Positions 5,350 through 29,390 of a stretch of DNA of 64,000 nt are shown one piece after another. The position numbers and the translations under genes are program-made. The DNA is from Marivirga harenae (GTDB lineage: Bacteria > Bacteroidota > Bacteroidia > Cytophagales > Cyclobacteriaceae), in contig NZ_CP130565.1 of the NCBI RefSeq assembly GCF_030534335.1, positions 641,501 to 705,500 of the forward strand, given 5' to 3'. The notes beneath the pieces are model-generated. The model worked only from the letters and a program-made list of their open reading frames with translations, made no database searches and was not told the DNA's origin. The stretch's first letter is position 1; each line of letters begins with the position of its first letter.

Positions 5350-6022
5350 TTTTCTCTTAGTGTCTTTCCTTTTTATATCCCTTTTGGGAAAAGCTCAAAA
5401 CAAACCTTCTCTTCGGTGGGAACCCGGTATTTCGATGACCAAAAAAATTGATTCCAGATGGAGCTATAATTTGTCGCTCTCTGGCAGACAGCGATTTACA
5501 AATTATGGAGAAGGTGAAAAAAACATAAAAACGGATCGCTGGGAAATAAAATCCTTTGGTACCTATACCTTACTGGGAGGTAAAAAAATAAGCTTGGGTT
5601 ATATGTATAGGACCGTTGATCCATTCGAACAAGAAAGTGGATGGGAACACAGAATAACACAACAATTTGCCTTTATCACCAATTTTGGTGGGTACAGGTT
5701 GGGAAACAAATTCAGAATAGAACAAAGAATCCGGTCTAGTAATTATTTGACTAGACTTAGATATGCTATTAGCAATGATTTTCCTCTGCAAGGAGAAAGC
5801 CTTGACCCAAAAGAATTTTACTTGATCAGTGGAAACGAACTAGTTTATGCATTTAACAGAAGAGGAACTGAATTGGAAAACAGATTTTCTCTGGGAATCG
5901 GTAGACTGATTCAAGGAGGACAAAAAATTCAATTTTCCGTTGCGAGTCGTTATAGTGACTTAGTAAGTGATAATCGAGACCATATCATTCAATTCGAAAG
6001 CGTTTATTACTTTAGTTTATAA
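5330..6022 (+). CDS. DUF2490 outer-membrane beta-barrel protein
   Basis: A signal peptide ending LLGKAQ is followed by about 205 residues of alternating amphipathic strands, ending in an aromatic strand (VYYFSL) as expected for a BAM-inserted barrel. The pattern WEPGISMTKKIDSRWSYNLS, the RIEQRIR strand and the final FESVYYF match the DUF2490 family, small barrels found widely in Bacteroidota with no assigned role. The start lies inside the 3' end of the preceding gene, so it is likely translationally coupled to it. Confidence 0.82.
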   Translation: MTTYFTNFLLVSFLFISLLGKAQNKPSLRWEPGISMTKKIDSRWSYNLSLSGRQRFTNYGEGEKNIKTDRWEIKSFGTYTLLGGKKISLGYMYRTVDPFEQESGWEHRITQQFAFITNFGGYRLGNKFRIEQRIRSSNYLTRLRYAISNDFPLQGESLDPKEFYLISGNELVYAFNRRGTELENRFSLGIGRLIQGGQKIQFSVASRYSDLVSDNRDHIIQFESVYYFSL

Positions 6023-6062
6023 TATAATAATGCCCCTGTGGAAAACTTTCCCTCATGTCTTC

Positions 6063-6091
6063 TTGTTTGACCTTTTAAAGCTGTAATTTTG
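6063..6091 (+). promoter_or_regulatory. Bacteroidota-type promoter for the structured RNA
   Basis: TTG at 6063-6065 and TAATTTTG at 6084-6091 are 18 bp apart. This matches the -33 TTG / -7 TAnnTTTG promoter used by the Bacteroidota housekeeping sigma factor. Expected initiation is near 6097-6099, exactly where the RNA's closing stem begins. Confidence 0.7.
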
Positions 6092-6097
6092 CAGTAT

Positions 6098-6309
6098 CCT
6101 CAGGGTGTTAAACAAATTTTGGTGAACCTAACAAGTATGACAATACCGGGTGAAGCAAACCTGTAAAGCCAGGCCTCATCCCGACTTCGGTCGGGACCTC
6201 GTTTCCCGTAAGGGATTCAGGATAACAGTGGAAGGCTGATCGGGCAAGCAGCCCAAATCCTGTAATAATCGGGGTTCACGCAATTTCTTTGATGCTCTGA
6301 GGTTTTTTT
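6098..6309 (+). ncRNA. Structured non-coding RNA, about 210 nt, family unassigned
   Basis: No ORF is supported here, but the stretch has a full RNA-gene layout: a promoter just upstream, a 5' CCTCAG (6098-6103) pairing with a 3' CTGAGG (6297-6302), and a T7 run at 6303-6309. A second long-range stem pairs GGTGAACC (6120s) with GGTTCAC (6273 onward). Inside are CCCGAC-TTCG-GTCGGG, TCCC-GTAA-GGGA with a GNRA loop, CCTG-taaag-CCAGG and GGGC-aagca-GCCC hairpins. The length and closed rod shape would suit a 6S-type RNA. I cannot match the signature motifs of SRP RNA, RNase P, tmRNA, or TPP and cobalamin riboswitches. It could also be a long leader, but the terminator about 310 bp before the next gene argues for a free RNA. 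Confidence 0.6.
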
Positions 6310-6310
6310 G
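6297..6310 (+). terminator. 3' terminator of the structured RNA
   Basis: CTGAGG at 6297-6302 closes the RNA by pairing with its 5' end and is followed at once by seven T residues, as in an intrinsic terminator built from the RNA's own terminal stem. Confidence 0.6.
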
Positions 6311-6460
6311 TTCTAATGTAGGGTGAAGGATGTTGGATGTTTGAAATTCAACGACTATTCAACCACATTTCTATTTATTTCAACTTATCTCTACTTTGTT
6401 TCCTTTTCATAGTCCGTTGCAGTCCTTAGATACTGACCAAATTTCGAGCTATTGCATTCA

Positions 6461-6508
6461 TCAGCAGATCAGCACATCAGCACATCAGCACATCAGCACA
6501 TCAGCAAA
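6461..6508 (+). repeat. Octamer tandem repeat (atcagcac x6)
   Basis: Six head-to-tail copies of an 8-bp unit: atcagcag, four perfect atcagcac, then atcagcaa. The repeat lies 110 bp upstream of the M28 peptidase start, in a gap with no gene. An 8-bp unit can slip during replication and vary in copy number. No reading frame crosses it, so any effect would be on transcription or on the leader. Confidence 0.9.
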
Positions 6509-6617
6509 TTAATAAATCATTAAATCCCCCACTCATCAAAGATGAAGTTCATTCCGCAACAATTTTCTTACTTTTTGCTTTAGCAATTCATATATTCAAA
6601 AAAAAACATTCCAAACT

Positions 6618-7970
6618 ATGAAAAAATATATATTTACTTTGACCTTGGTCGGACTTTCTTACTTGGGCTTTAGTCAAGTCCCACAGGAAATAGATGTGCG
6701 ACAATATGATATAGTAGAAGCAGTGTCTGCGGATAGAATTGAAAGTGATATCAGAACTCTAGCAGGTTTTGGTACTAGAAATACTTTTTCGGATACAGTT
6801 TCCAACACCAGGGGAATTGGCGCTGCCAGGCGCTGGATCAAAGCTGAATTCGACAAAATCTCCGAAGAATGTGGTGGGTGCTTGGAAGTCTTTTACCAAA
6901 AAGATTTTGTAACAAAAGAAGGTAATGGAAGAGTGCCGAAAGACGCTTGGGTAGTAAATGTAGTCGCAATTCAAAAAGGGACTGATTATCCAAACAATCA
7001 TGTTTTAATGTCAGGAGATATTGATTCCCGCGCTAGCAATACGATGGATTATGAAACAGATGCACCAGGCGCCAATGATAATGCTTCCGGTATGGCGGGC
7101 ACTATTGAAGCCGCCCGAGTGCTATCTAAATACAAATTCAAAAACAGTATCGTTTATGTAGGCCTTTCGGGTGAAGAGCAAGGCTTATTTGGTGGAGCTG
7201 GATTAGCAGAATATGCCAAAAAGAATGAATGGAACATCATTGGTATATTAAACAATGATATGATAGGCAATATTGAAGGTGTAGATGGTGTTATCGACAA
7301 TAGAACTTTCAGGATATTTTCTGAACCTGTACCTCCTACTGAAACGGACAGAGAGAGAACAATGCGCAGATATTATGGCGGGGAAGTGGACGGAATATCC
7401 AGACAATTAGCTAGATACGTTCATAATCAAGTGAAAACCTACATGCCAGAAATGAACCCAATGATGATATACAGATTGGATAGATTTGGAAGAGGTGGAC
7501 ACCACAGACCTTTCAATGACTTAGGCTTTGCAGGAATCCGAATAATGGAAGCACATGAGAATTACAACCGACAGCATCAGGATATAAGAGTCGAAGATGG
7601 TATTGCATATGGTGATGTGGTTGAAGGAGTAAATTTTGATTACGCCAAAAAGCTAACTGCTGTCAATGCCATTTCACTTGCTGGTTTAGCTTGGGCACCA
7701 CCTGCTCCAAAAAATGTGGGGATAGGAGGAGTGGTAGAACCTTCTGCAAAATTGGCTTGGGACAAGTCAGATGATGAAAATATACTAGGTTACAAAATCT
7801 ATTGGAGATTGACCACCTCTCCAACTTGGGATAATTTCAGATATGTTGGAAAAGTTAATGAGCATACTTTAGAAGGTATTGTAATTGACAATTATTATTT
7901 CGGAGTGGCGGCAGTAGATAAAAATGGAAATGAATCGGTAGTGGTATTTCCAGAAAGAGTAATTAGGTAA
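6618..7970 (+). CDS. Secreted M28 family metallopeptidase with C-terminal Fn3-like domain
   Basis: A signal peptide (ending GLSYLGFSQ) directs export. The M28 zinc aminopeptidase fold spans about 100-340: bridging Asp in GANDNASG (D154), the Glu pair in SGEEQG (186/187), Asp in NNDMIGN (D214) and the late His in GGHHRPF (295/296). The usual first ligand motif GH-x-D-S appears as GDIDSR (D134), so Asp stands where His is normal. A C-terminal fibronectin-III-like domain (about 360-450) follows. The enzyme should release amino acids or dipeptides outside the inner membrane. A strong terminator lies just downstream, so it is probably monocistronic. Confidence 0.88.
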   Translation: MKKYIFTLTLVGLSYLGFSQVPQEIDVRQYDIVEAVSADRIESDIRTLAGFGTRNTFSDTVSNTRGIGAARRWIKAEFDKISEECGGCLEVFYQKDFVTKEGNGRVPKDAWVVNVVAIQKGTDYPNNHVLMSGDIDSRASNTMDYETDAPGANDNASGMAGTIEAARVLSKYKFKNSIVYVGLSGEEQGLFGGAGLAEYAKKNEWNIIGILNNDMIGNIEGVDGVIDNRTFRIFSEPVPPTETDRERTMRRYYGGEVDGISRQLARYVHNQVKTYMPEMNPMMIYRLDRFGRGGHHRPFNDLGFAGIRIMEAHENYNRQHQDIRVEDGIAYGDVVEGVNFDYAKKLTAVNAISLAGLAWAPPAPKNVGIGGVVEPSAKLAWDKSDDENILGYKIYWRLTTSPTWDNFRYVGKVNEHTLEGIVIDNYYFGVAAVDKNGNESVVVFPERVIR

Positions 7971-7994
7971 ATAGTTTAATTTATGAATTTTTAG

Positions 7995-8025
7995 AAAGGC
8001 TTGCTAAATCAGCAAGCCTTTTTTA
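7995..8025 (+). terminator. Intrinsic terminator after the M28 peptidase
   Basis: A perfect 10-bp stem (aaggcttgct 7996-8005 with agcaagcctt 8011-8020), a 5-nt loop and a T-rich tail, 25 bp after the stop codon. Confidence 0.9.
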
Positions 8026-10871: not shown

Positions 10872-11043
10872 AAAAATTTCAAAATCTCATACCATATTAA
10901 TCCTAAGCAGACTATTTCATGGGACGTTGACAACACATTATTTCAAAAACACTTATGTAATTTCAAGCGAGCTTCCTTTTAATCAAAAAATAGCTGCATA
11001 TTTCGATATACAATCATTACATTTAAACTGATCAACTAAACTT

Positions 11044-11511
11044 ATGAAAAATCTATTTATAGCGGTATCCATCACCTTATTATGTTCATGCCAAACGCAA
11101 ACTAAAGAACAGCAACCCATTACTGAACAAGAAATTCAGATTGCGAAAGACCTCATTCAAGGATCATTCGATGATTTGTGGGCAGGAGTAGATTCAACTA
11201 AGATTAGTAACTACCATACCGATGATTTCATTATTTTAGAACAGGGCGAAATATGGGATAATGATAGAATAAAAGAATATATGCGGAAGCAGTTGGCTCG
11301 GACTGAAAGACCCAAGCGAACAAATCGAATGGAATATATTGCGATAGACAAATACGGTGAGTCAATTCAAATCGCATACTATAACTTCGCTGAATTTACT
11401 CAAGCCGATACTTTAGTGGGTGAAGCTAAATGGCTAGAAAGCGCACTGGCCGTTTCAACAAAAGAAGGCTGGAAATTAAAAATGATGCATTCCACCTGGG
11501 CTGGTGATTGA
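11044..11511 (+). CDS. SnoaL/DUF4440-like lipoprotein
   Basis: A short lipoprotein signal (ITLLCSC) precedes about 130 residues with the NTF2-like pattern: a long N-terminal helix (EQEIQIAKDLIQGSFDDLW), HTDDFIILEQGEIW, a central helix and the closing strands ALAVSTKEGWKLKMMHSTW. This is the SnoaL-like/DUF4440 fold, used by varied enzymes and binding proteins, so no reaction can be assigned. It should be anchored in the cell envelope and has no obvious operon partner. Confidence 0.72.
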   Translation: MKNLFIAVSITLLCSCQTQTKEQQPITEQEIQIAKDLIQGSFDDLWAGVDSTKISNYHTDDFIILEQGEIWDNDRIKEYMRKQLARTERPKRTNRMEYIAIDKYGESIQIAYYNFAEFTQADTLVGEAKWLESALAVSTKEGWKLKMMHSTWAGD

Positions 11512-11630: not shown

Positions 11631-12821
11631 ATGAAAAAGGAACAATCTAGAAGAGAATTTATTGTAAAAGGGATTAAATCTGCAGTTGTTATTCCCTTTT
11701 TATTTACGGGTTTAAATGCTTGCAATAATAGTTCTAAAGAGAAAAGAACTGATTCAACTTCCGAAACAAAAGCAAAGTCTTTAAAAATTCTGATTCTCGG
11801 TGGCACAAGTTTTTTAGGTCCGCATCAAATTTCATACGCGATGAAAAGAGGACATTCCATATCTACATTTACAAGAGGGAAAACAAAACCAACAGTTCAT
11901 CAAGATTTATTTGATCATGTTGAGCAGCTTATAGGTGACAGAAAAGATGATTTAACTGCTTTGCACAATCGTAAATGGGATGTAGTAATTGACAACTCAG
12001 GACATGATGCAGAATGGACAAGAAAATCAGCAGAGTTGTTAAAAGAAAATTGCGATTTATATGTTTATACCTCGTCAACAGGAGTTTACTATCCTTATAT
12101 AGATAGCGATTATAAAGAAGGTGCAAAAGTATTGCTAGAAGAACCGGAAGTCATTACAGATGAGGAAGAGAAAATAGAGTATTGGTATGGCGTAATGAAA
12201 GCAAACTCTGAACTAGAAGCGATAAAACAGTTTGGAAAAGATAAATCTTTAATAGTTAGGCCAACTTATATGATAGGTCCAGCAGATAAATCAAACAGAT
12301 TTATACATTGGACTATTAGGTTAAGCCAAGGAGGAGAGGTTTTAGTGCCCGGAAAAGAAAAGGACCTAGTTCAATATATTGACGTTAGAGATGTAGCGGA
12401 GTGGATGATTCGCTTGATAGAAGATAAAAAGAATGGAACGTACAATGCGGTAGGGCCAAAAGAGAAGCAGACTATGTATTCTTTTGTTGAAGAAGCAAAG
12501 GAAGCATTCCCTGCAAAAACCACCTTGGTTAAAATAGATGATTATGAATTTCTGAGAGAGCACAATATCTCTGACCTAGTTCCTTGGATCATGCCTACAG
12601 GAAAAAATGCAGGATCGGCAAAAGTAAATAATGAGAAAGCAATCGCAAACGGTTTATCGTTTAGACCACTTGCAAAAACGGTGAAGGATACTTATGACTG
12701 GTGGAATTCCGAAACAGTGTCTCAAGCGCAACGAGATAAAGTTGAGCTGGATCCAAAATCCGTATTAGTAAGAGAACGTACTATTCTTACCGCTTGGCAA
12801 AAGTTGACAGCTACAACATAA
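11631..12821 (+). CDS. NAD(P)-dependent epimerase/reductase-like SDR protein, exported
   Basis: The N-terminus has a Tat-like motif (SRREF) followed by a hydrophobic stretch and a possible lipobox (TGLNAC), so it may be exported folded and lipid-anchored. From about residue 48 a Rossmann fold begins (LKILILGGTSFLG), with a YGVMK motif (about 188-192) as the SDR Tyr-x-x-x-Lys pair. The sequence resembles atypical extended SDRs such as NAD-dependent epimerase/dehydratases. The substrate is unknown. Tat export of an NAD-binding enzyme is known for several envelope oxidoreductases. Confidence 0.82.
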   Translation: MKKEQSRREFIVKGIKSAVVIPFLFTGLNACNNSSKEKRTDSTSETKAKSLKILILGGTSFLGPHQISYAMKRGHSISTFTRGKTKPTVHQDLFDHVEQLIGDRKDDLTALHNRKWDVVIDNSGHDAEWTRKSAELLKENCDLYVYTSSTGVYYPYIDSDYKEGAKVLLEEPEVITDEEEKIEYWYGVMKANSELEAIKQFGKDKSLIVRPTYMIGPADKSNRFIHWTIRLSQGGEVLVPGKEKDLVQYIDVRDVAEWMIRLIEDKKNGTYNAVGPKEKQTMYSFVEEAKEAFPAKTTLVKIDDYEFLREHNISDLVPWIMPTGKNAGSAKVNNEKAIANGLSFRPLAKTVKDTYDWWNSETVSQAQRDKVELDPKSVLVRERTILTAWQKLTATT

Positions 12822-17610: not shown

Positions 17611-18642
17611 ATGGACAAGAAAAAAGCGAAGCTAATTGTAAGGATATTATTGTTTGTCGGCACCGCAATCTCTTTATACTTTGTACCCTGGCCAGTAGTT
17701 TTTGCATGGCTTAGCCCTTTACCGAATTCCCTACAGGAACAAGTCGATAGAGCTGGCGATTATGGTTTTGATGGCATTATAGTTTATGTAGATAAAAAAG
17801 GAGAAGCACCTAGGTCATTCACTTCTGGTTATAAAAACAGAGCTACTAAAACTCCTGCAGATCCGAATTCGCTTTTCAAAATCGCAAGTGTGGACAAATT
17901 ATATACCGCACTCGCTATTGCCAAGATGTCAAGAAGCGGACAGCTATCATTAGACCAAAGTCTAGCTTTCTATTTACCAGAGCTCAAGGGTAAAATAGAA
18001 TATGCAGATGAGATCAGCTTGAAAATGATGGTGCAACACCGATCAGGCATTCCCAACTATACCAATACCCACCTTTATTGGGTGGCTCCAAAAGAGTCAG
18101 ACGAGGAAAAGTTGGGTTTAATACTTAATTTACCTGCGAACTTCAAGCCTGGCGAAGATTACCAATATTCCAATACCAACTATCTCCTCCTAGGTAAAAT
18201 AATGGATGAAGTCTTGGGCTATGACCACTTCCAGTATATTCAAGAGGAAATACTAAAGCCATTGGACCTCAAAAATACTTTTGCCTCCATTCAGGATGTG
18301 GATTTAGCCGATGTCATGAGTGGATATTATGTTGGCTATGAACAAGATTTAAAAACTGACAATGTAGGCTCTATGCTGGCAACTGCTGCAGATCTCAGTA
18401 CATTCATTAGAGCTTTAAATGAGGGCACAATATTTACAGACGAGGAAGAGCAAAAAATTTATGCTTCCATCTATGAATTTGAACATACGGGTTTAATCCC
18501 AGGCTATCAAACCATCGCAAAATATCACCCTGAAATGGATGCTGTAGTGATCCAATTTACCAATACGGTTAACTTTGACGGTTACAACTGGAATTTATCT
18601 GAAGTGATGTATAGTCGTGTTGTGAAAATTTTAAAAGATTGA
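17611..18642 (+). CDS. Membrane-anchored serine hydrolase (beta-lactamase / class C family)
   Basis: One N-terminal hydrophobic segment (about 10-35) anchors or exports the protein. The catalytic domain has the class C set: S93-x-x-K96 in SVDK, Y186-S-N188 in YSNTNY, and H292-T-G in EHTGLIPG. These are the nucleophile, general base and substrate-binding triad of the beta-lactamase/DD-peptidase/esterase family. Most members outside true AmpC enzymes are esterases or peptidases, so antibiotic resistance should not be assumed. Length (343 residues) is normal. Confidence 0.88.
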   Translation: MDKKKAKLIVRILLFVGTAISLYFVPWPVVFAWLSPLPNSLQEQVDRAGDYGFDGIIVYVDKKGEAPRSFTSGYKNRATKTPADPNSLFKIASVDKLYTALAIAKMSRSGQLSLDQSLAFYLPELKGKIEYADEISLKMMVQHRSGIPNYTNTHLYWVAPKESDEEKLGLILNLPANFKPGEDYQYSNTNYLLLGKIMDEVLGYDHFQYIQEEILKPLDLKNTFASIQDVDLADVMSGYYVGYEQDLKTDNVGSMLATAADLSTFIRALNEGTIFTDEEEQKIYASIYEFEHTGLIPGYQTIAKYHPEMDAVVIQFTNTVNFDGYNWNLSEVMYSRVVKILKD

Positions 18643-18738
18643 ATCTTACAATTTGTAGATTAATAACTAAGCTGAACATCCTGTATAAATCATGGCTGTA
18701 AGTAGGTTATTGTTAGTTTCGTTCTTTGTAGATAGCCC

Positions 18739-18800
18739 ACCAATCTGCAGGATTGACTTATTTGTAAAACGTAATTTAATCAGCCAATCCTGCGGATTGC
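18739..18800. repeat. Inverted repeat pair caatctgcaggattg / caatcctgcggattg
   Basis: Two 15-bp boxes in the gap before the lipoprotein gene are reverse complements except for one base, and each is itself nearly palindromic (AATCC-TGC-GGATT). They may be REP-like extragenic elements. Confidence 0.55.
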
Positions 18801-18898
18801 CTCAATAGTTAGCGCGAATTTTTATATATTTAAACAGCCATGAATTTATAGAGTGGCGTTAGCGGGGATTATCCCCTCACCCTAAAACCACCATATAA

Positions 18899-19411
18899 AT
18901 GCATAAGAATTCTATTTTTCTATTCCTCGTATTGTTGACTTTACAACTCTCATGCTCCAAGCCTGAGAAACCACCTTACGAACTCCCAACGAATGCGAAA
19001 TTTCTGTTAACCGGAGACTCAACTAAAACATGGAAATTAGCCCGTAGATTCAATAATAAAACTCGGATGAACATGGGAGATTGTTTTTTATCTCACAGAG
19101 AAACGTATAAGGGTGACATGACAATGCATAACAACTCTGGTGAAAATAGAGATTGCGGAGAAAGTCTTAACGCGACATGGGAATTTGCGAAGGACAAGAA
19201 AGGAAACTACTACATTAGAATTGAAAGCCAGCAGTTACCAGCACTGATGAACATTGAAAAGAATTACAAACTTTTTAAGGTTCTGCGACTAACGGATGAA
19301 CAGATGACATTGCAGTTTAATCACAAGCAATTTTCCAGCAAAACAACAACTATTACAGACATTTATGTTCCTGAGAATGCTTTGATCAATGACCGAGAAT
19401 TTCATTGGTAA
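18899..19411 (+). CDS. Small lipoprotein of unknown function
   Basis: A lipoprotein signal peptide ends in LQLSCS. The mature part begins with a proline-rich linker and then a short beta-rich domain with TGDSTKTWKLA, TWEF, YYIRIE and FKVLRLTDEQMTLQF, which recalls the lipocalin-like domains common in Bacteroidota lipoproteins (W-K-L and L-T-x-x-x-L-x-L strands). Two cysteines (in MGDCFLS and NRDCGES) could form a disulfide. The gene is bracketed by GTTAGCG (18854-18860) and CGCTAAC (about 19416-19423) boxes, which hints at a cassette-like unit. The lipocalin reading is tentative. Confidence 0.75.
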   Translation: MHKNSIFLFLVLLTLQLSCSKPEKPPYELPTNAKFLLTGDSTKTWKLARRFNNKTRMNMGDCFLSHRETYKGDMTMHNNSGENRDCGESLNATWEFAKDKKGNYYIRIESQQLPALMNIEKNYKLFKVLRLTDEQMTLQFNHKQFSSKTTTITDIYVPENALINDREFHW

Positions 19412-19592
19412 AATCTCGCTAACAAATGATATGAATGAAGGGGTTTCATCGGTCAAGAAATTTTAGTGCTACTTGGAAAGTCCGCCACAAATTGTAAATT
19501 TATACTACTGTATGGCTATCTGCGAGAGGAAAGGCTAGTGCTTTCTATTCCCCACTCATCATGGCCTAAACGTCAAGCCTGATTAAGCTGAA

Positions 19593-20063
19593 ATGACAGA
19601 AAAGGAGAACCATATAAAATCAAATCTTGAAATTCTCAGAAATGAACTTGATCAGCTTTTTGACTTTTTTGAGAATGGCCTAGACTATCATAAAATGGTT
19701 TATGAATTCTGGAATGCAAAGGACATTCTTGGACATATAACCTTTTGGCACGAGAGTTTTGCGAGGAATATTTCAGATTTAGGCAAGGGCATTCAACCCA
19801 AACCCTTAAAAGGGAAACTTTCAGAAGTTAACATACAAAGTGTCGAAACCACAAAAAACGAATCCATCGCAAGTCTAATCAAACGATTGAAAGCGGCCCA
19901 AGCCACCATTGAAGAATTCATATTTGATGATACCATAAACCTAATACCCTATAAGAAGGGTTCACGGGATTATTCAAGGAGCGAGCATTTAGAAGTAGTA
20001 TCCCACCACATTCATAAACATTTAACAGACATTTCTAAAAAATATGGCACGACCAAAGAATAA
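19593..20063 (+). CDS. ClbS/DfsB-like four-helix protein (copy 1)
   Basis: A cytosolic 156-residue helical protein. The motif WNAKDILGHITFWHESFA is the hallmark of the DUF1706 (ClbS/DfsB) branch of DinB-like four-helix bundles, and HLEVVSHHIHKHL supplies a late His-rich helix. ClbS hydrolyses the colibactin cyclopropane and protects its host; most homologues have no assigned substrate. The 3' end overlaps copy 2 by 20 bp, so the two are likely co-translated. The two copies are diverged, not a recent duplication. Confidence 0.75.
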   Translation: MTEKENHIKSNLEILRNELDQLFDFFENGLDYHKMVYEFWNAKDILGHITFWHESFARNISDLGKGIQPKPLKGKLSEVNIQSVETTKNESIASLIKRLKAAQATIEEFIFDDTINLIPYKKGSRDYSRSEHLEVVSHHIHKHLTDISKKYGTTKE

Positions 20064-20541
20064 AGCTGATTTGCTGAATTTGAGCAAAAAGAACTTTGAA
20101 CTTCTGATGGATTTCATTGAAAGTTTATCCGAAGAAGAACAAAAATCTCCTTTTCCGAAAGGAACAATGAATCGAAATATTGGAGATGTACTCATGCATC
20201 TTCACCATTGGCATTTAATGATGATTGATTGGTACGCGCAAGGAATGAAAGGAGAAAAACCAGATATGCCAGCCAAAGGATACACTTGGAAGACAACTCC
20301 TGAATTAAACAGCTGGATTTGGGAAAAATATAAGAACACCCCTCTTGAAGATGCCAAGAAGAATTTCAAATCAAGCTACGAAAAAATTAGGAGTTTAATT
20401 GAGAAACATAGTGATGAGGAACTATTTGAAAAGAAAAGATACAAATGGACTGGAACTACCTCACTAGGTGCCTACCTTGTATCGGCTACTTCAAGCCATT
20501 ATGACTGGGCTATAAAACTTATTAAAAAGGCGAAGAAGTGA
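20044..20541 (+). CDS. ClbS/DfsB family four-helix protein (copy 2)
   Basis: 165 residues. MARPKNKADLLNLSKKNFELL, VLMHLHHWHLMMIDWY, MPAKGYTWK and the late SATSSHYDWAIKLIKK helix are the typical ClbS/DfsB signature, including the H-x-x-H-W-H cluster in helix 2. Characterised relatives inactivate or bind electrophilic natural products such as colibactin. It begins within the end of copy 1, implying coupled expression of two related proteins. No biosynthetic gene cluster lies near, so a self-protection role is not indicated by context. Confidence 0.82.
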   Translation: MARPKNKADLLNLSKKNFELLMDFIESLSEEEQKSPFPKGTMNRNIGDVLMHLHHWHLMMIDWYAQGMKGEKPDMPAKGYTWKTTPELNSWIWEKYKNTPLEDAKKNFKSSYEKIRSLIEKHSDEELFEKKRYKWTGTTSLGAYLVSATSSHYDWAIKLIKKAKK

Positions 20542-20626
20542 AAAGGAGAACTCAGAATGTCAATGCGATAATGCTTCCTAAACGGTCCCGCTATGAATAT
20601 ACAAACCGTTATAATCCTACAGAAAT

Positions 20627-21505
20627 ATGAAAAATATAGGTCTTATTATATTTTTACTGATATTATCGACTACAGCTCAAGGTCAAGCTAATGAATTCAG
20701 AAATCAAAGGGCCCAGTTCACTGCTTTGAATATTGGATTTAATGGGCTAATTGGCGGGCTAGGTGGCTTAATCAATAACAATGGAAATAAATCAGGTTTT
20801 CAAGCATTTACCAAAGGATTTTATCAGGGAGCTATAGGAGGTGCTGTTAGTCATATTGGATTCTCATTAACGCATCAAGTACAAAAACAACGCAATATTT
20901 CTTATGCCTGGCCCGCAAGAATTGTGAACTCCCTGGGAAGCTCGATTATTCAAAATGCTGCTGAAGGCCATAGAATGTTCGAACGCTTACACCTCAACCT
21001 GTATATTACGCGCTTGGAATATTATCCTTACCAAAAGAAATTTAGGGGAAGGCTCTTCACATCATCCATTTATGGTATTTTGGTTGCTGGTAGGAATGCA
21101 AAGCTCGATGTAAAAAAATCCCTGCAAACGGGAATCCTATATTTTGAGACTTCTCAATATTTTTCTTCTGCAATCGGCAGCGGAAGTGCCACTGGCCAAG
21201 TAAGCTCAATCGGTATGAGCAGTGGCTTTTCTGATGATAGATATTACAGCACCTACGCTCACGAAGTAGCTCACATCCTTCAATATGACAGAATGGTAGG
21301 GCCTAATGCCTTTTTATACTCTTTTGATCAAAATTTAAAATCTAAATACGCGCTTTACAAAAACCTCTCAAAATTCATATACTTTGATTTAAACGGCCCT
21401 ATATTCTTTCTGGCCTATAAAGCTGCAGGATCAACACATAACTGCAACTTTTTTGAACAAGAGGCAGAAAATTATAGCAACAGGGTAGCCTATACATGTA
21501 ATTAA
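20627..21505 (+). CDS. Secreted HExxH metallopeptidase-like protein of unknown family
   Basis: A signal peptide ends TTAQGQ. A glycine-rich hydrophobic stretch follows (about 40-75, GLIGGLGGLI and GAIGGAVSHIG), possibly membrane-inserting. Near the end is H212-E-V-A-H216 (YAHEVAHILQY), a zinc-protease motif, with a candidate third ligand in EQEAENYS (E279 or E281), about 63 residues later, as in gluzincins. The family is not one I can name; the core between is beta-rich. Whether it is active is unproven, but all three ligands are present. Confidence 0.72.
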   Translation: MKNIGLIIFLLILSTTAQGQANEFRNQRAQFTALNIGFNGLIGGLGGLINNNGNKSGFQAFTKGFYQGAIGGAVSHIGFSLTHQVQKQRNISYAWPARIVNSLGSSIIQNAAEGHRMFERLHLNLYITRLEYYPYQKKFRGRLFTSSIYGILVAGRNAKLDVKKSLQTGILYFETSQYFSSAIGSGSATGQVSSIGMSSGFSDDRYYSTYAHEVAHILQYDRMVGPNAFLYSFDQNLKSKYALYKNLSKFIYFDLNGPIFFLAYKAAGSTHNCNFFEQEAENYSNRVAYTCN

Positions 21506-22054
21506 GTTCTTGAATAGACGCTATTGGGTCAATTCTATATTTGTAAATATCTAGCTAAGGGATGAAACTTGACTCATCTATATACACAATGAACAAACTG
21601 ACAGGCTAACATACCATAAACACCTCCTTCAAAACCAACTTCCGTCATATCATTTCGCATTTCCTTTAAATTATTTGTCTGATCCTGAAATAGCGAACTC
21701 TAATCAAGCAATACCCTCAACCCAAAAAATTGAGAATCTCATAGACCAGCGGAAAAACCAATCATGAAGCATCTGTTGAACGTTCGCAAATCAATATTCA
21801 TAGCTATATTTAAGCCGTTCATAGAAATAATAAAGCCGATCCAAGGAAAAGTATAAATAAATCTCGTAATTAGAGTATTCAACTAAATCCTACAAAGCCC
21901 GCCTGACGAATATTCAAAATGGTTTTTAGGGGATTTAGGGTGTATTAATAATGTAGATATACTGAATATATTGGGCTATCGACAATTGAATAATAATATT
22001 TATCAGCAATTTTGATAGCCAATTGTTGTGTAGCATTAAAAACAAAGAGACTAA
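21506..22054. other. Gene-free spacer before the PIN-like gene, with nested inverted repeats
   Basis: No gene is supported in these 549 bp. Just before the next gene, GGCTATC (21974-21980) pairs with GATAGCC (22014-22020), and CAATTG boxes at 21983-21988 and 22020-22025 form a second inverted pair, followed by gttgtgtagc. This two-tier arrangement recalls recombination or REP-like sites found next to accessory genes. Nothing else is recognised. Confidence 0.5.
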
Positions 22055-24121
22055 ATGAACAGTAAAAATATCTCAAGAACAGCAGCAATTATATTTTCTG
22101 AAGAAAGCTCTGCAATAAAGTCAACTACTGTTCAACGTAAGATAATTGAATCCCTTTTTGTTGAGAATGACAATAAAGAACTCACTATTGACCAAATAAT
22201 TGATGAACTTAAATCGTCACTAGAATTAGACTTTGATACCGAAGAAATTTACAGCCTGATCAACGATGAAAAGAAATCCAACTTTGACATAAGGCTTGAC
22301 AACTCATTCAAGGAGAACTACTTAAAACTTGAAAATAAAAGATTCGCACTCTTAAAAGAAAGAGAAAAAGAAAATTCCATATTCCCACATATTGAGAGAT
22401 TTCAATCATCAGTTTATGAAGGGGAATTAAATACTAGTAAACTTGATGAGATTCTACACAAATACCTATATGAACTTCTAAATAAGAATATTCAAGCATT
22501 TAAGAAAATTGCAAAGAGCTCTAATTCTACTGACAATCTGTACATTGATCCAAGCCTCTTTACTGTAGCGGAGCGACTAGCTATAAATCAATTCATTGAA
22601 TGGGAAGATAATGAGAAGAACAAAGCAATTTTTGCCCTAATTAGTTACTCAATTGAATATGCGGCTATTAACAACCATTACGAAAGTTCAGATATTTTTC
22701 TCAAATCTATTAAGGATAAAATATTTTATTTGGACAATAACGTCCTTTACAGAGCAATAGGAATAAATGGTGAAAACCGAAAAAATCGAATTACAACATT
22801 CATAGAAAAGTGTATTTCAGCAGGACAGAAATTTAAAATTTCGTCATTCACAGAAAAGGAGTTCAAGGAAACAATAAAGCATCATATTAAGAACCTTCAA
22901 AAAGTCCCTTTCAAAAGAATCAATTATCGATTGTTTTCTAAGTACTCATTAAACCCAAGTATTTATGAATACTATCATAAATGGAAAACTAATAGAGCAA
23001 CATATGGATTTGACCTTTTCACAACCCATCTTTTTTCGGAACTTGAATCATTTAAGAAGAAGTACAACGTAGAAACGGTTTACAAAATTCCCTTTGATCC
23101 AAAAGCAAAAGAACCCGAAAAGAAAATTTCAGAATATCAGGATGAAATAGCGGCTGCGAAAGGTTATGGTTATGAACAATCACATTATTTTGACGCAATA
23201 AACACTTACCTCGTAGAAACACTTAGGGGACAGAATCAGAATTCAATAACAGATACTAAGTATTTCTTTGTTTCGACCGACCAAAAGCTAAGGGATTGGG
23301 ATTTTGCCAGAAATGAGTTTCAACCAATAGCACTAATCCCAAGCCAATGGATGGCTATACTGCTTAAATATCATTCAAGAAGTTCAAACGATTACTCAAG
23401 CTTTTTATCTTTTCTAAGACTCAAGACCAATACCCCTGTTATCAAAGAAGACGATTTGCAGACAGTGCTTGCGGGAATAAGTGAGATAACTGAAGATTTT
23501 GAAAAACAAGAATCTATCTTGGATAAAATGGTCGAGTTGAAATTTGACGGAATCATGAATGGGGACAATAACCCAGAAGAGATTTATAAGAAAACAATTG
23601 ATTTCGTTTCTCGCGAGTATGAAAAAGAGCTTGAGGAATTAAATAGAGATAGAAATAAAGCAGAAGAAAATTTCAACTCTGAAAAAATTCAATTTAAAGA
23701 AAACTTGTTAAGTGAAAAGGAGAATTCAATCAGTGAACTTGCCAAGCAAAAAATCCCGATTCAAAGACAGGCTGACAAAAGATTTAATCGCTATAAATTA
23801 AGCTTTTCACTTATCGTCATATCCTACTTTATAATTTTGGGAATAATAACGTATAAAGTGGGTTGGGAAACTATGGAACCAATAACCTACTTTTTAGGGG
23901 CAATTGGGATAATTGCGACCTACCTATACCCTGCTATTTACGGAAAAGACATAAATCCAAAAAAGTATTTTGAAACCAAAGAGTCAGAGATAACATCTAA
24001 GGTCTTTTCTGAATTCAATTTTGACTTAGGTCGTTACGAAGAACTTCAAAACGAAAGAGATAATCTTAAAAATGAAATTGAAGAATTAACAACGCTACAC
24101 AACAATGTATATAAAAAATAG
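22055..24121 (+). CDS. PIN-like nuclease domain protein with coiled coil and two C-terminal membrane segments
   Basis: 688 residues, no signal peptide. The N-terminal about 200 residues are helical and unrecognised. A PIN-like core begins at YLDNNVLYRAIG (D227), has an acidic helix EQSHYFDAINTYLV (around 385-395), and ends with FFVSTDQKLRDW (D409). The DxNVL opening and TDxxL closing strands are the usual metal-binding acidic sites of PIN ribonucleases. A long charged coiled coil follows (about 495-575), then two hydrophobic segments (about 582-602 and 608-628) and a cytosolic helical tail. It stands alone in an accessory-looking stretch. A membrane-tethered RNA-cleaving effector is a reasonable guess, but no homologue of known function comes to mind. 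Confidence 0.75.
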   Translation: MNSKNISRTAAIIFSEESSAIKSTTVQRKIIESLFVENDNKELTIDQIIDELKSSLELDFDTEEIYSLINDEKKSNFDIRLDNSFKENYLKLENKRFALLKEREKENSIFPHIERFQSSVYEGELNTSKLDEILHKYLYELLNKNIQAFKKIAKSSNSTDNLYIDPSLFTVAERLAINQFIEWEDNEKNKAIFALISYSIEYAAINNHYESSDIFLKSIKDKIFYLDNNVLYRAIGINGENRKNRITTFIEKCISAGQKFKISSFTEKEFKETIKHHIKNLQKVPFKRINYRLFSKYSLNPSIYEYYHKWKTNRATYGFDLFTTHLFSELESFKKKYNVETVYKIPFDPKAKEPEKKISEYQDEIAAAKGYGYEQSHYFDAINTYLVETLRGQNQNSITDTKYFFVSTDQKLRDWDFARNEFQPIALIPSQWMAILLKYHSRSSNDYSSFLSFLRLKTNTPVIKEDDLQTVLAGISEITEDFEKQESILDKMVELKFDGIMNGDNNPEEIYKKTIDFVSREYEKELEELNRDRNKAEENFNSEKIQFKENLLSEKENSISELAKQKIPIQRQADKRFNRYKLSFSLIVISYFIILGIITYKVGWETMEPITYFLGAIGIIATYLYPAIYGKDINPKKYFETKESEITSKVFSEFNFDLGRYEELQNERDNLKNEIEELTTLHNNVYKK

Positions 24122-24203
24122 GCGAAACAGCAATAAAATCAAAGCTTTTAGCTTGAATCAAAGTTCGTGTTCAACTGAAAGTTCCGTTCTTCAAATTCGC
24201 CTA
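24119..24203. repeat. Inverted repeat TAGGCGAA ... TTCGCCTA
   Basis: TAGGCGAA (24119-24126, overlapping the stop codon of the PIN-like gene) is matched by TTCGCCTA (24196-24203), enclosing about 70 bp. Such a pair directly after an isolated accessory gene may mark a recombination or cassette boundary, or simply an mRNA 3' structure. Confidence 0.5.
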
Positions 24204-24233
24204 CTTTTCATATACTAAACGTCACCCCCAATA

Positions 24234-24446
24234 ATTAAAACAGCAGAATTACTCACAACCATTTTCATCGAAGGCCCCATAAATTTCCTATTCAGTTTCC
24301 CAGGTGCAGTTATCCGTTAGCTTTTAGGCGGAAGAAAGAGGTCTCTTAAAGCCTATTGGAATGAAAATATATTTTTAAACGCATTCATTGGAATTGCCTT
24401 TTTTAGCATAATAATTTTAATTGTGATGGTTTCAAGCAACTCATAA
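24234..24446 (+). pseudogene. Small membrane protein gene broken by an amber codon
   Basis: Frame 24234-24446 reads as a compact coding sequence of 70 codons: KTAELLTTIFIEGPINFLF, FSFPGAVIR, then TAG at 24318-24320, then LLGGRKRSLKAYWNENIF and a hydrophobic segment NAFIGIAFFSIIILIVMV, ending SNS and TAA. The TAG stands where TGG (Trp) would fit, and the first codon is ATT where ATG is expected. The IEGPxNF and GGRKRSLK pattern recalls a family of small Bacteroidota membrane proteins, but I cannot name it. It looks inactivated by point mutations; readthrough is possible but unsupported. Confidence 0.65.
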
Positions 24447-24563
24447 AAGTGAAAGTAGACCAAGTGAAAACAGAAGTTTGAAATTAATAAATTGCTTTAT
24501 AACTACTTAGATATCAAATATTAAGATATATTTAGCAAATCTTTTGCAATAAATCATACCGTC

Positions 24564-24926
24564 ATGAAAATCATAATCCTTGCCACTTCGCTAATATTAT
24601 TTCTGCATTTTGAAAGCAGTGCACAAACCAAATTCGTGTTGGAACCCTCCCAGAGCATGATTATGACAGGAAAAGGTACTGGTCAAGATGCCACCATAAA
24701 TCCTTATTTCGGACAAGATTGCTATGCAATCGTGAAAAATATTGGGAAGAGAGAATTCTTTATAAGAGTCCAGCAGGAAGGGAAAGTCATCAAAAAAATC
24801 CCGATCCTGAAAGATGAAGTAAAAAAAGTAAAACTCTTAAAAGGCTACGAACTCTACTTAGACCCAAACCCAGAAGGCAGAGCAAAAGCCAGCGTGGACT
24901 ATGAAAAAATAGTGGCAGAAAAATAG
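24564..24926 (+). CDS. Small secreted protein of unknown function
   Basis: A signal peptide ending FESSAQ is followed by about 98 residues that look like a single beta-sandwich: KFVLEPSQSMIMTGKG, CYAIVKNIG, EFFIRVQQEGKVIKKIPI and a basic strand KKVKLLKGYELYL. One cysteine remains in the mature part. It ends about 70 bp before the convergent frameshifted lipoprotein gene. No family is recognised. Confidence 0.7.
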   Translation: MKIIILATSLILFLHFESSAQTKFVLEPSQSMIMTGKGTGQDATINPYFGQDCYAIVKNIGKREFFIRVQQEGKVIKKIPILKDEVKKVKLLKGYELYLDPNPEGRAKASVDYEKIVAEK

Positions 24927-24994
24927 GCTAAACTAGCACACACAAGTAGTGGGTACCCATTTAACCCTCTATTTCTCTCACTATTCAGCCACCT

Positions 24995-25779
24995 TCACGG
25001 CCCTTCTTTCTTATCAAAAATAGAAGCATCATCTGAGAATTGAATATTAGAAATAGTCGCTTTTCCCAGCTGCTCTGCTAAACCGTTCTTCTCACTCCAG
25101 TTCCAGAATTTCCATTGCTGCGCAAAGGGAATATCCTCCACTTTCTTATAATCAGAGTAACTAATCGCATGGGGGTTTTGAGCGGCTTTTTCCTGATCAC
25201 GACCACCAAAAGTTACGATATAGGCCATGGCTTCCAACACTTGACTTTCTTCATTCTGATACACCACATACCAGTCATCTGGTGCATCTCCAATATTTTC
25301 TCCAAAGGTCAATTTAGTGGTCATCAAACTATCATTTTCCTGATAGGGTAATTTTTTAGGGTCCGTATGATGCGTTCCTGGGTCGTTCAACTTAAAAGGG
25401 CCATAAAGAAATAGGACCAAGTCAAGGCATCGAATCTTGCTCCATCATACAAACTATCTTTAGGATGAATCCAGATCTCATTACCATCAAATAATAATCG
25501 AGTGTTCTCTGAATTCTCAACTAGCACTTTTGATGAAGTAGTGGTAGAATAAATCCTAGCGTCCAAGCGCTCATTACCTCCAAAAATCAAATTTATGTCA
25601 AAGGAAATAATCCTTTCCTCCATAAACGCATCAAGATTATGAGCTTCCTGAATGGATTTAATGACCGGATTAACTTGCTCTGCTACAGCTGAGCTTTGAA
25701 GCGATTCTTCTTGTTTATTTTCCTTTTGACTTGAACAGGAAGCAAATACTAAGGCAATAAGGACTACTAAATTTCTCAT
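24995..25779 (-). pseudogene. DUF6503-like lipoprotein, frameshifted near base 25401
   Basis: On the minus strand a lipoprotein signal (VLIALVFASCSS, start at 25779) leads into a protein whose frame breaks after LTWSYFFM. The continuing part, in another frame, starts with GPFKLNDPGTHH and ends at 24995. Restoring one G in the ATGGCCC stretch (plus-strand 25399-25402) rejoins ...YFFMGPFKLNDPG... seamlessly. The pattern LDAFMEERIISFDINLIFGG, FDALTWSYFF and WYVVYQNEESQVLEAM fits the DUF6503 family of Bacteroidota (tentative). It may be a true frameshift or a homopolymer sequencing error. The full product would have about 260 residues and sit in the envelope. Confidence 0.75.
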
Positions 25780-25949
25780 ATCATTTCTTTAATTATAAAG
25801 GCGAAGGTACTATCATTATTTGAACTGAATTGTCAGCTAACTAGCATTTTTGCAAATGATTCAGCTTAACAAATCAACCATTCCTAAAATAACTCTGCGC
25901 ATAATGGGCAAATTTCACTACATTTCTAGTATAAATAACCATTTAATCT

Positions 25950-28900
25950 ATGAAGAAATATAGCACACTAAGCCTATTGATTGCATTAATTGCAATCAAT
26001 TTTAGTGCTTTTGCCCAGGAAGACGAAAAGGCAGACAGCACTAAAAAAGCAACCAAAGAACTTCCGCTAGAACCGGAAAGAACCATCGAGTTTAACACTA
26101 AAGAAGGCACCTGGCTTTCTGTGGATGTGAGTCCAAATGGGAAGACCATCTTATTCGATATGATGGGAGATATCTATTCCATTCCTTTTACGGGTGGAAA
26201 AGCAACGAAAATAACAGAAGGAATGGCCTATGATGTACATCCTCGGTACAGCCCAGATGGAAAATCGATAGTTTTTATCTCTGATAAAAGCGGTTCGGAT
26301 AACATCTGGACGATGGATTTGGAATCGGAAGAGATGAAGCAAATCACCAAAGATGATAATCAAAATTACTTCTCAGCCGACTGGACCCCAGATGGCGAAT
26401 ATATTGTGGGTTCAAAGGGTAGAAGAAATGCCAAACTACATATCTACCACAAAGAAGGCGGCTCTGGTGCTCAATTAATTGACAAACCTGACAACTTAAA
26501 AGCCACTGATCCCGCCATCAGTCCTGATGGGACACTGATCTACTTTTCACAAAGGAGATCTGCATGGAACTACAATGCGCAATTCCCGCAATATCAAATC
26601 GGCACTTACGATATGGAAGATGGTGATATGGCAAGCATCACTTCACGCTACGGATCAGCCTTTACTCCTACCTTATCACCTGACGGGAAATGGTTAGTGT
26701 ACGGAACTCGTTTTGAAACAGAAACGGGTTTAGTAAGAAGAAATTTAACAACCGGTGATGAAGAATGGTTGGCCTATCCGGTACAGAGAGATGAGCAAGA
26801 ATCAATCGCTCCTTTAGGCGTTTATCCGGCTATGTCATTCACGCCAGACAGTAAGTTTATAATTGCCACTTATGGGGGAAAAATCCATAAAATCGACATC
26901 AATGCAAAAACGGCTTCAGAAATTCCATTCGAAGTAGATTTGAAATTGGAATTGGGCCCAAGATTGAAATTCGAATATCCTATTTCAGATAATAAAGAAG
27001 CTTTTGTAACACAAATAAGAGATGGTGTACCGTCTCCTGATGAAACCCAATTAGCCTTTACTGCTTTAAACAGATTGTATGTAATGGATTTGCCTGAAGG
27101 TGAACCAAAAAGATTAACGAAGCAAAATTTCACTGAAGCAATGCCGGCATGGTCACCAGATGGTAGTCAAATTGTATTCTCGACCTGGGAAGAAAAAGAA
27201 GGCGGACATTTATATAAAATTAATTCTAATGGCAGAGGAAAGCCAGTAAAGCTGACACAAAACCCAGCGCTATACCTTGATCCGGAATGGTCTTATACTC
27301 AAAACCGAATCGTATTCAATAGAGGAGCGAATCAGGTGTATAAAGATGCTATTGACCCATTCGGTTCTTTAACGATGGAAGATTTAGCTTGGATTTCTGC
27401 TGAAGGTGGAAAAGTAACTTTAATTGATAAAGCAAAAGGAAGAAGTACTCCTCATTTCTCAAAAGTGTCGGACAGAATTTACCTCAATCATGGGTCTAAA
27501 GGTCTGATTTCAATCAGATGGGATGGTACTGATGAGAAGGAACATTTACAATTGACTGGAATTACCACTTATGGTTCTTCTATTGATATGATTCATGCGC
27601 ACGATGGTTCTCATAATATTTTGCCAGGTGATGAGAAAGCATGGAGAGAAAATAATAAAGCTTCGAAGCCATCGGAAATCAGAATTTCTCCCGATGGAGA
27701 AACGGCTTTGGCAAAAATCAATAATGATGTGTATTCGGTAACGATTCCGAAATATGGTCAGACGCCTAAAATCTCATTAGCGAAAGCAGATAATGCTGCT
27801 TTCCCTGCCATGAAATTAACCGTTATGGGAGGCGAATTCCCTGCATGGTCTGGTGATAGTAAAAAAGTACATTGGTCATTAGGCACCAGTCATTTCATTT
27901 ATGATTTAGCTGCTGGTAAAGCTTACGCAGATAGTGTTGCAACGGCTAAAAAAGAAGCTGCCAAAAAGAAAGAGGAGGAGAAGGAAGAAGATAAAGATTC
28001 TGAGGAAGACAAGGAAGAAGAGGACAAGGAAGAAAAAGCAGATGAGAAAAAAGACAAAGAAGAGAAAGAGGAAGGCTTCACGGCTAAAGAGATAAAAGTA
28101 AAAGTAGCTTATGAAAAAGATATTCCAGAAGGGACTATCCTTTTAAAAGGTGCTAGAATCATCACCATGACGGATCAGGGTGTGATTGAAAATGGAGATA
28201 TCTTAATTGAAAACAACCGAATTACGGCAGTTGGTGAAAGTGGTAGTTTAGAAGTTCCAAAAGGAGCTAAAACCATTGAGGCTGGCGGTAAAACCATCAC
28301 ACCAGGATTTGTAGATACACACGCGCATATGTGGCCAAATTGGGGTTTACATAAAAATCAGGTTTGGATTTACTCAGCTAATTTAGCTTATGGGGTAACC
28401 ACTACTCGTGACCCGCAGACTGCTACCACCGATGTTTTGACCTATTCAGACATGGTGAATTCAGGGATGATCCACGGACCTAGAGTATACAGTACTGGCC
28501 CTGGTGTAGGCTATTGGATGTATAAAATCAAATCTTTGGAACATGCCAAAGAAGTTTTGAAGCAGTACAGTGAATACTATGACACCAAGAGTATCAAGAT
28601 GTACTTAGTTGGTAATCGTCAGCAGAGACAATGGATCATTATGGCCGCTAAGGAATTAGAATTAATGCCAACGACTGAAGGTGGGTTAGATTACAAACTA
28701 AACATGACGCAATTATTGGATGGATACCCTGGCCACGAGCACAGTTTACCGATTGTAGGCATTTACAAAGATGCTGTACAAACGATAGCAGAATCTAAAA
28801 TGGCCGTAACCCCTACCCTATTAGTTTCTTATGGTGGACCATGGGCGGAAGAGTTTTACTATGCCACGGAAGATGTATATCATGATGAAAAACTACAATA

Positions 28901-29390
28901 CTTCACGCCTTATGAAGAATTGGCTCAAAAGTCGAGAAGAAGAGGTGCATGGTTTATGGAAGAGGAACACGTATTCCCTAAGCATGCTAAATTCATGAAA
29001 GATTTAGTAGAAGCAGATGGTATTGGCGGAGTAGGTAGCCACGGGCAACTGCAAGGCTTAGGATATCACTGGGAGCTATGGTCTGTTGCCAGCGGAGGCA
29101 TGACTACTATGGATGCTTTAAAAACTGCGACAATTCTAGGAGCAGAAGCATTAGGACTAGAAGGTGACTTAGGAAGTATAGAGGAAGGTAAATTAGCTGA
29201 TTTATTGATTATGGATAAAAATCCATTAGAAGAAATCAGAAATACCAATACCTTAACTCATGTGATCAAAAATGGTAGAGTTTATGATGCCGATACTTTG
29301 GATGAAGTTGCCCCAAATGAGAAAAAGGCAGAGAAATTTGAATGGCAGACTAAAAGGCCTGAGAATGTGCCGGGAATTCAGAAGGATTAA
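25950..29390 (+). CDS. Secreted TolB-type beta-propeller / amidohydrolase fusion protein
   Basis: 1146 residues with signal peptide (ALIAINFSAFAQ). Residues about 45-640 carry WD40/PD40 propeller repeats (SPDGKSIVFISDKSG, SPDGSQIVFSTWE and others) as in TolB. A Lys/Glu-rich linker (about 665-710) follows, then an amidohydrolase domain. Its metal site opens with VDTHAHMW (H791, H793), with later SIKMYLVG, GYPGHEHS and GVGSHGQLQG motifs and a closing EEGKLADLLIMDKNP strand. Such fusions are common in Bacteroidota as imidazolonepropionase-like amidohydrolases of unknown substrate. The N-terminal region is duplicated as a relic at 10709. A strong terminator follows. Confidence 0.9.
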   Translation: MKKYSTLSLLIALIAINFSAFAQEDEKADSTKKATKELPLEPERTIEFNTKEGTWLSVDVSPNGKTILFDMMGDIYSIPFTGGKATKITEGMAYDVHPRYSPDGKSIVFISDKSGSDNIWTMDLESEEMKQITKDDNQNYFSADWTPDGEYIVGSKGRRNAKLHIYHKEGGSGAQLIDKPDNLKATDPAISPDGTLIYFSQRRSAWNYNAQFPQYQIGTYDMEDGDMASITSRYGSAFTPTLSPDGKWLVYGTRFETETGLVRRNLTTGDEEWLAYPVQRDEQESIAPLGVYPAMSFTPDSKFIIATYGGKIHKIDINAKTASEIPFEVDLKLELGPRLKFEYPISDNKEAFVTQIRDGVPSPDETQLAFTALNRLYVMDLPEGEPKRLTKQNFTEAMPAWSPDGSQIVFSTWEEKEGGHLYKINSNGRGKPVKLTQNPALYLDPEWSYTQNRIVFNRGANQVYKDAIDPFGSLTMEDLAWISAEGGKVTLIDKAKGRSTPHFSKVSDRIYLNHGSKGLISIRWDGTDEKEHLQLTGITTYGSSIDMIHAHDGSHNILPGDEKAWRENNKASKPSEIRISPDGETALAKINNDVYSVTIPKYGQTPKISLAKADNAAFPAMKLTVMGGEFPAWSGDSKKVHWSLGTSHFIYDLAAGKAYADSVATAKKEAAKKKEEEKEEDKDSEEDKEEEDKEEKADEKKDKEEKEEGFTAKEIKVKVAYEKDIPEGTILLKGARIITMTDQGVIENGDILIENNRITAVGESGSLEVPKGAKTIEAGGKTITPGFVDTHAHMWPNWGLHKNQVWIYSANLAYGVTTTRDPQTATTDVLTYSDMVNSGMIHGPRVYSTGPGVGYWMYKIKSLEHAKEVLKQYSEYYDTKSIKMYLVGNRQQRQWIIMAAKELELMPTTEGGLDYKLNMTQLLDGYPGHEHSLPIVGIYKDAVQTIAESKMAVTPTLLVSYGGPWAEEFYYATEDVYHDEKLQYFTPYEELAQKSRRRGAWFMEEEHVFPKHAKFMKDLVEADGIGGVGSHGQLQGLGYHWELWSVASGGMTTMDALKTATILGAEALGLEGDLGSIEEGKLADLLIMDKNPLEEIRNTNTLTHVIKNGRVYDADTLDEVAPNEKKAEKFEWQTKRPENVPGIQKD

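Follow-up and report, generated by a model that had tools for sequence, protein, structure and literature searches.

The stretch of DNA analysed here, 64,000 nucleotides of the Marivirga harenae chromosome (contig NZ_CP130565.1, positions 641,501 to 705,500) and referred to below as the window, carries at positions 22055-24121 of the forward strand a gene for a 688-amino-acid protein in which a PIN-like nuclease domain is fused to a module of the MCU (mitochondrial calcium uniporter) type. The gene is open throughout its 688 codons, exactly at the coordinates given in an initial sequence-only reading, and a full-length homologue, 68% identical, is found in Kordia aestuariivivens. It is also isolated, as that reading had stated: the region 21505-24564 holds no further open reading frame (ORF) of at least 60 amino acids. 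The gene is AT-rich, having 30-34% GC in 1-kb windows, with surroundings mostly at 36-42%. All parts of the protein are given here on the forward strand. An N-terminal helical region (residues 1-210, positions 22055-22684), conserved among the closest homologues, is helical in the predicted model, although blocks of ten there have a pLDDT of 27-44, which is a low confidence; it is a possible infection sensor. It is followed by the PIN-like domain (residues 215-440, positions 22697-23374), a coiled-coil linker (residues about 507-575, positions 23573-23779), recognised by eye within a long helix that spans residues 507-603 in the model, and the MCU pore module (residues 541-664, positions 23675-24046).

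The active site of the PIN superfamily is made up of four conserved acidic residues in the order D, E, D, D. The window protein contains such a set in D227 (FYLDNNV), E269, D380 and D409 (VSTDQKL). D227 and D409 are indeed present at the residues named in the sequence-only reading, and the acidic central part described there contributes E269 and D380. In an alignment of nine family proteins, D227, E269 and D380 were kept in all nine; D409, whose conservation had likewise been proposed as a check, was kept in eight and is absent in the homologue of locus L013. In the homologue of locus L028, which is outside this alignment, D227 appears by eye to be replaced by E. Structure prediction, also suggested as a check, returned a PIN-like fold and no other: in the model, where the PIN part was predicted within the longer chain, fold comparison identified a PIN fold with VapC as the closest. 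Residues 215-440 are thus a PIN-like fold, as modelled, with a conserved acidic set, and they may have RNase activity. Profile searches of homologues gave PF01850 (PIN) in two of the nine members of alignment A2 (E 0.032 and 0.05) and PIN_12 in the homologue of locus L027 (E 0.094), all below cut-off. A PDB profile search with alignment A3 produced a single chance match (E 1.4). Matches to CRISPR Cas2 and HTH_40 profiles (E 0.003-0.03) were set aside; they cover short stretches, those from Pfam are below cut-off, and PADLOC gives no cut-off for its matches of this type. The window protein resembles VapC and other PIN ribonucleases in fold and in the D-E-D-D set, but differs from them by a long insert inside the domain, by the N-terminal helical region and by the membrane pore; unlike VapC, its gene has no adjoining antitoxin ORF of at least 60 amino acids.

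The C-terminal part matches the MCU profile PF04678 at 56.5 bits (gathering score 30.8), and the Kordia homologue does so at 53.4 bits. The MCU is the calcium channel of mitochondria. Its coiled coil, first transmembrane helix (TM1), W-[D/E]-x-M-E-P loop, second transmembrane helix (TM2) and C-terminal helices are alignable over about residues 519-679 of the window protein. Alignment to 6dt0 and 6dnf identifies WETMEP (residues 604-609, positions 23864-23881) as the counterpart of the MCU selectivity filter W-D-x-x-E-P, and it lies between the two transmembrane helices as in that channel; it has Glu for Asp, a conservative change, and retains the second Glu. Hydropathy in 19-residue windows has two maxima, at window starts 579-587 and 610, and in the model the helix 507-603 is interrupted at 604-608 and followed by a helix at 609-629. 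These data agree with the coiled coil and the two C-terminal membrane helices described earlier. The window protein differs from MCU in being bacterial and in having a PIN domain and a helical region before the pore. We conclude from the sequence that its tail is an MCU-type module, which would conduct ions and is probably tetrameric. The earlier description of the protein as membrane-tethered therefore holds for the two helices and not for the implied generic anchor: as an identity, such an anchor is rejected for the window protein by the MCU match, and its functional version is weighed below. SLATT and other defence effectors with two transmembrane helices (2TM) share a C-terminal 2TM module in defence loci, and a SLATT_5 gene neighbours one homologue (L003); the window tail, in contrast, matches MCU, and SLATT models are absent from its Pfam matches at E up to 5.

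The tails of the 13 family proteins vary. PF04678 matches two of them over and two below cut-off, one is matched by profile A4 only, and the remaining 8/13 have no MCU match. What the closest homologues share is the nuclease, and the MCU pore is one among several 2TM tails. The filter reads WEIMEP in homologue G518 and contains N in the Kordia homologue, and the motif is missing from the homologues of L020 and L028. In the window protein, segments rich in K/R are present on both inner flanks of the TM pair. Because the PIN domain precedes TM1, the inner flanks are K/R-rich and the filter loop lies between the helices, the predicted topology mirrors that of MCU, with the filter outside and the nuclease inside; a membrane-bound effector that couples its nuclease to a cation pore is therefore favoured.

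The sequence-only reading had also noted inverted repeats around the gene. These are found at 22022-22037 and 24091-24106 (94% match) and include an exact 13-nucleotide arm; among 20,000 random block pairs at equal spacing in the window, only three shared an arm that long. The 5′ arm, ATTGTTGTGTAGC, and its 3′ partner correspond over exactly 13 nucleotides to the complementary core ends (R′ and R″) expected at the boundaries of gene cassettes. Transposon ends, which we also considered, were set aside because the repeats agree with core sites as they occur in attC-like elements. On the forward strand, the R′-like core site occupies 22022-22034, with crossover expected between G22025 and T22026, and the attC-like site 24094-24229; the latter comprises an R″-like arm (24094-24106) and a long imperfect stem and ends in AAACG/TC, the junction lying at 24221/24222. 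The presumed cassette, one gene plus its attC-like site, would then span 22026-24221 of the same strand, and its GC content is about 32.2% (22028-24220) as against 35.9% for the window. In agreement with the 5′ boundary, a genome of the same genus (G004) is collinear with the window up to about 22021 and then carries different genes and an attC-like site of its own. The suspected decayed neighbour is partly borne out: 21505-22021 is non-coding and shared with G004, but the 166-amino-acid ORF of G004 lies mostly in about 685 nucleotides absent from the window. On the 3′ side G004 again has other genes, not an empty site. The cassette does not explain 24222-24490, because collinearity with G004 returns only near 24500. 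No counterpart was found for this segment between the cassette end and the resumed collinearity.

Comparison with other attC-like sites supports the presumed site. It has a fold z of -4.0, and a stretch of 122-126 nucleotides at the stop codon of the gene shares 82-85% identity with sites that separate resistance genes on plasmids of Myroides and Riemerella; it also resembles six places on one Persicobacter plasmid. On these plasmids (L053, L054 and L055), attC-like sites divide resistance genes (Myroides, Riemerella) and unknown genes (Persicobacter). Ten such sites have in common AACA close to their start and CGT close to their end. A nine-site alignment (A7) gave both the pair counts and the site model, the long Persicobacter site L055 5275-5478 being only in A6. 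Over the nine sites the stem has 17 pairs, 13 of them with compensatory double changes; pairing holds in 94.7% of cells, against 69.5% in shuffles, with 0/500 shuffles as high, and falls to 32-43% when partners are shifted by 1-3 columns. The site model has one match in the window, which belongs to the training set. Outside that set it places one site immediately ahead of the Kordia homologue (37.9 bits, E 3.7e-6) and, weakly, another after it (15.7 bits, E 0.59); L014-L020, L025, L026, L027 and L028 give no match up to E 1. Sites of this type were thus seen at two of the 13 family members, the same pair that matches MCU in full. Rfam at gathering scores reports nothing at the attC-like site.

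The gene therefore looks like the cargo of an attC-bearing cassette. As in integron gene cassettes, a single gene is followed after its stop by a foldable attC-like site, and the core ends are complementary; in contrast to these, the cargo is a PIN-MCU gene and the genome lacks an IntI over the TIGR02249 cut-off. We call the element cassette-like, not a canonical integron, because all 14 TIGR02249 matches in its own genome are below cut-off, as are those in 14 of 14 control genomes, and because the listed matches skip model positions about 190-235.

The family is rare and scattered, with 13 proteins in all (the window protein and 12 homologues). Searches in overlapping genome sets, each including the genome of the window, gave homologue matches in 2 of 98 genomes of relatives, 3 of 395 sampled across the phylum and 7 of 390 of the order, and matches to the MCU-tail profile in 4 of 395 of the class; two short, stop-containing matches were then left out of the order set (L010, L011) and two of the class set (L023, L024). 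Besides the one full-length relative in Kordia aestuariivivens, there are two distant relatives on Hymenobacter plasmids and a homologue on a viral contig (L025), recovered with profile A3, which adjoins a terminase-like gene (by eye). Viral contigs gave no match for the window protein, the MCU-motif pattern or the G518 protein; phage records gave none, nor did plasmids searched with the MCU tail.

Examination of the neighbours of homologues, proposed in the sequence-only reading as a further check, showed that defence genes adjoin the homologue in 9 of the 12 loci read. In three loci it lies within or next to a type I restriction-modification (R-M) operon. L020 has the order hsdM, PIN-family gene, hsdS, small gene, hsdR (the hsd genes Pfam-checked), L015 the order hsdM, hsdS, two more genes, PIN-family gene, AlbA-like gene, hsdR (hsdM and hsdR Pfam-checked, the rest by eye), and L014 the order hsdS, PIN-family gene, Fic (hsdS Pfam-checked, the rest by eye). 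Next to the homologues of L018 and L019 lie a gene of XRE-IrrE type (over cut-off) and one for a small PIN-like protein (below cut-off). In both loci the XRE-IrrE peptidase gene, the small PIN-like gene and a PIN-2TM or PIN-MCU gene form a recurring trio; hhalign of alignment A2 against the two small PIN-like proteins gave no match. The other neighbours are a SLATT_5 gene (over cut-off) with a recombinase (by eye) in L003, TIR, SIR2 and Piwi genes in L026 and QatC/QatD genes in L027 (both from annotation), and type III R-M and DndD-like genes in L017 (by eye). Homologues beside Qat or prokaryotic Argonaute (pAgo) genes sit on plasmids. No defence neighbours were found in L016, L028 and the phage-like L025.

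The PIN-like fold with its acidic set, the MCU module, the attC-like site with its 5′ boundary and the defence neighbours of homologues are, with somewhat better than even probability in our judgement, best explained if the gene encodes a single-gene, cassette-borne effector of the abortive-infection type, in which we infer RNase activity, conduction, sensing, their coupling and a defence role. The resting protein would be inert, and its N-terminal helical region would probably sense infection. The coiled coil would join a cytoplasmic PIN RNase to the C-terminal pore; this would sit in the inner membrane, probably as a tetramer, and turn its WETMEP filter towards the periplasm. Upon infection the oligomer would be switched on and the PIN domain would cut cellular RNA; in MCU-tailed members the pore may admit Ca2+ or other cations, which would either deal a second blow or trigger the nuclease. 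Phage replication would thereby be halted. Two results weigh against this proposal. The window protein has no PIN profile match in Pfam, NCBIfam or PADLOC, despite which residue conservation and fold comparison back the PIN core proposed in the sequence-only reading. Moreover, no defence genes were present among the ORFs read at 18000-29000 of the window, so that the toxin or defence role suggested there draws support from the neighbours of homologues elsewhere and none from the window locus.

It is possible, though we consider it doubtful, that the protein is a membrane-anchored PIN RNase whose 2TM tail serves only for anchoring and oligomerisation, ion flow being irrelevant. This view is favoured by the closest homologues, which keep the PIN domain and exchange the tail, by the lack of an MCU match in most of the family, by the N in the Kordia filter and by the absence of the motif in L020 and L028. 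However, a plain anchor would have no need to retain W-E-x-M-E-P, and the filter residues of the window protein and of G518 are ones that conduct in human MCU. A chromosomal stress or housekeeping regulator, in which a Ca2+ channel controls an RNA-processing PIN enzyme outside defence, is unlikely: it would account for the lack of defence neighbours at the window and at three homologue loci and would parallel the physiological role of mitochondrial MCU, but it fits poorly with the sporadic distribution, the cassette boundaries, the low GC content, and homologues that lie in R-M operons or are plasmid-borne next to Qat or pAgo genes. The toxin of a VapBC-type pair, suggested by VapC as the closest fold and by the small PIN-like and XRE-IrrE genes flanking two homologues, is very improbable, since the presumed cassette carries a single gene and no partner ORF of at least 60 amino acids adjoins it (antitoxins below that length were not looked for).

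PIN defence proteins are already known; a PIN-MCU fusion was not met in the literature searched, which covers few subscription journals and has no bioRxiv collection, and within the same coverage no description was found of what bacterial MCU relatives do. The MCU tree of PMC7423614 mentions bacterial sequences. DS-3, found with DefensePredictor, is described in PMC13092281 as a one-gene PIN RNase defence protein without antitoxin, thought to be auto-inhibited; the window protein resembles it as a one-gene protein with a PIN domain and no antitoxin ORF of at least 60 amino acids, and appears to differ from it in the MCU pore, which the passages on DS-3 do not mention. An MCU-nuclease fusion in a family found near R-M, Qat and pAgo genes would point to a direct function of a bacterial MCU that can be put to the test. 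The cassette in turn suggests a concrete way for such genes to spread among Bacteroidota. A bolder and rather unlikely extension is that the bacterial MCU pore is a defence part, a Ca2+ gate arming a cytoplasmic PIN RNase, which infection would open so that Ca2+ flows in and the nuclease halts the cell, that the mitochondrial uniporter shares ancestry with a bacterial immune effector, and that such Bacteroidota genes move as cassettes of an integron-like system without recognised IntI.

The type of attC-like site is already partly published, because one adjoining a mobile Riemerella anatipestifer resistance gene, with integration without flanking homology, is reported in PMC13148043; the passages on it connect the site neither with a PIN-MCU gene nor with a chromosomal array. 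Passages of a 2022 survey (PMC9024848) credit one Bacteroidetes genome, that of Salinibacter ruber, with a complete integron. On the whole chromosome the site model found 13 sites at E up to 0.004, that of the window included, and three of these places have tyrosine recombinase genes within about 8 kb. One region (L077, G000:C1:3868001-3884000) contains a gene for a 372-amino-acid tyrosine recombinase (3508-4626), after which come about ten small genes in a common orientation. One of them encodes a KAP-like NTPase (by eye) and has an attC-like site beginning 4 nucleotides past its stop; in the array the model found two sites (10956-11087 and 12615-12809), not one per gene. This region is an integron-like array without recognised IntI. 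Another (L078, G000:C1:1796001-1807000) has a recombinase gene split into two open frames and an IS91-type transposase gene. An RloA/RloB-like pair (5623-7287, by eye) adjoins these, and positions 7440-7573 hold an attC-like site; an IS91 transposase and a tyrosine recombinase are likewise paired beside cassettes on the Myroides plasmid L053. A further attC-like site (L079, 11391-11524) lies directly beside a tyrosine recombinase gene. Elsewhere in the window, positions 7966-8022 match the Rfam family cyano_het_sRNA marginally (36.3 bits, gathering score 35.7), probably by chance in this non-cyanobacterial genome.
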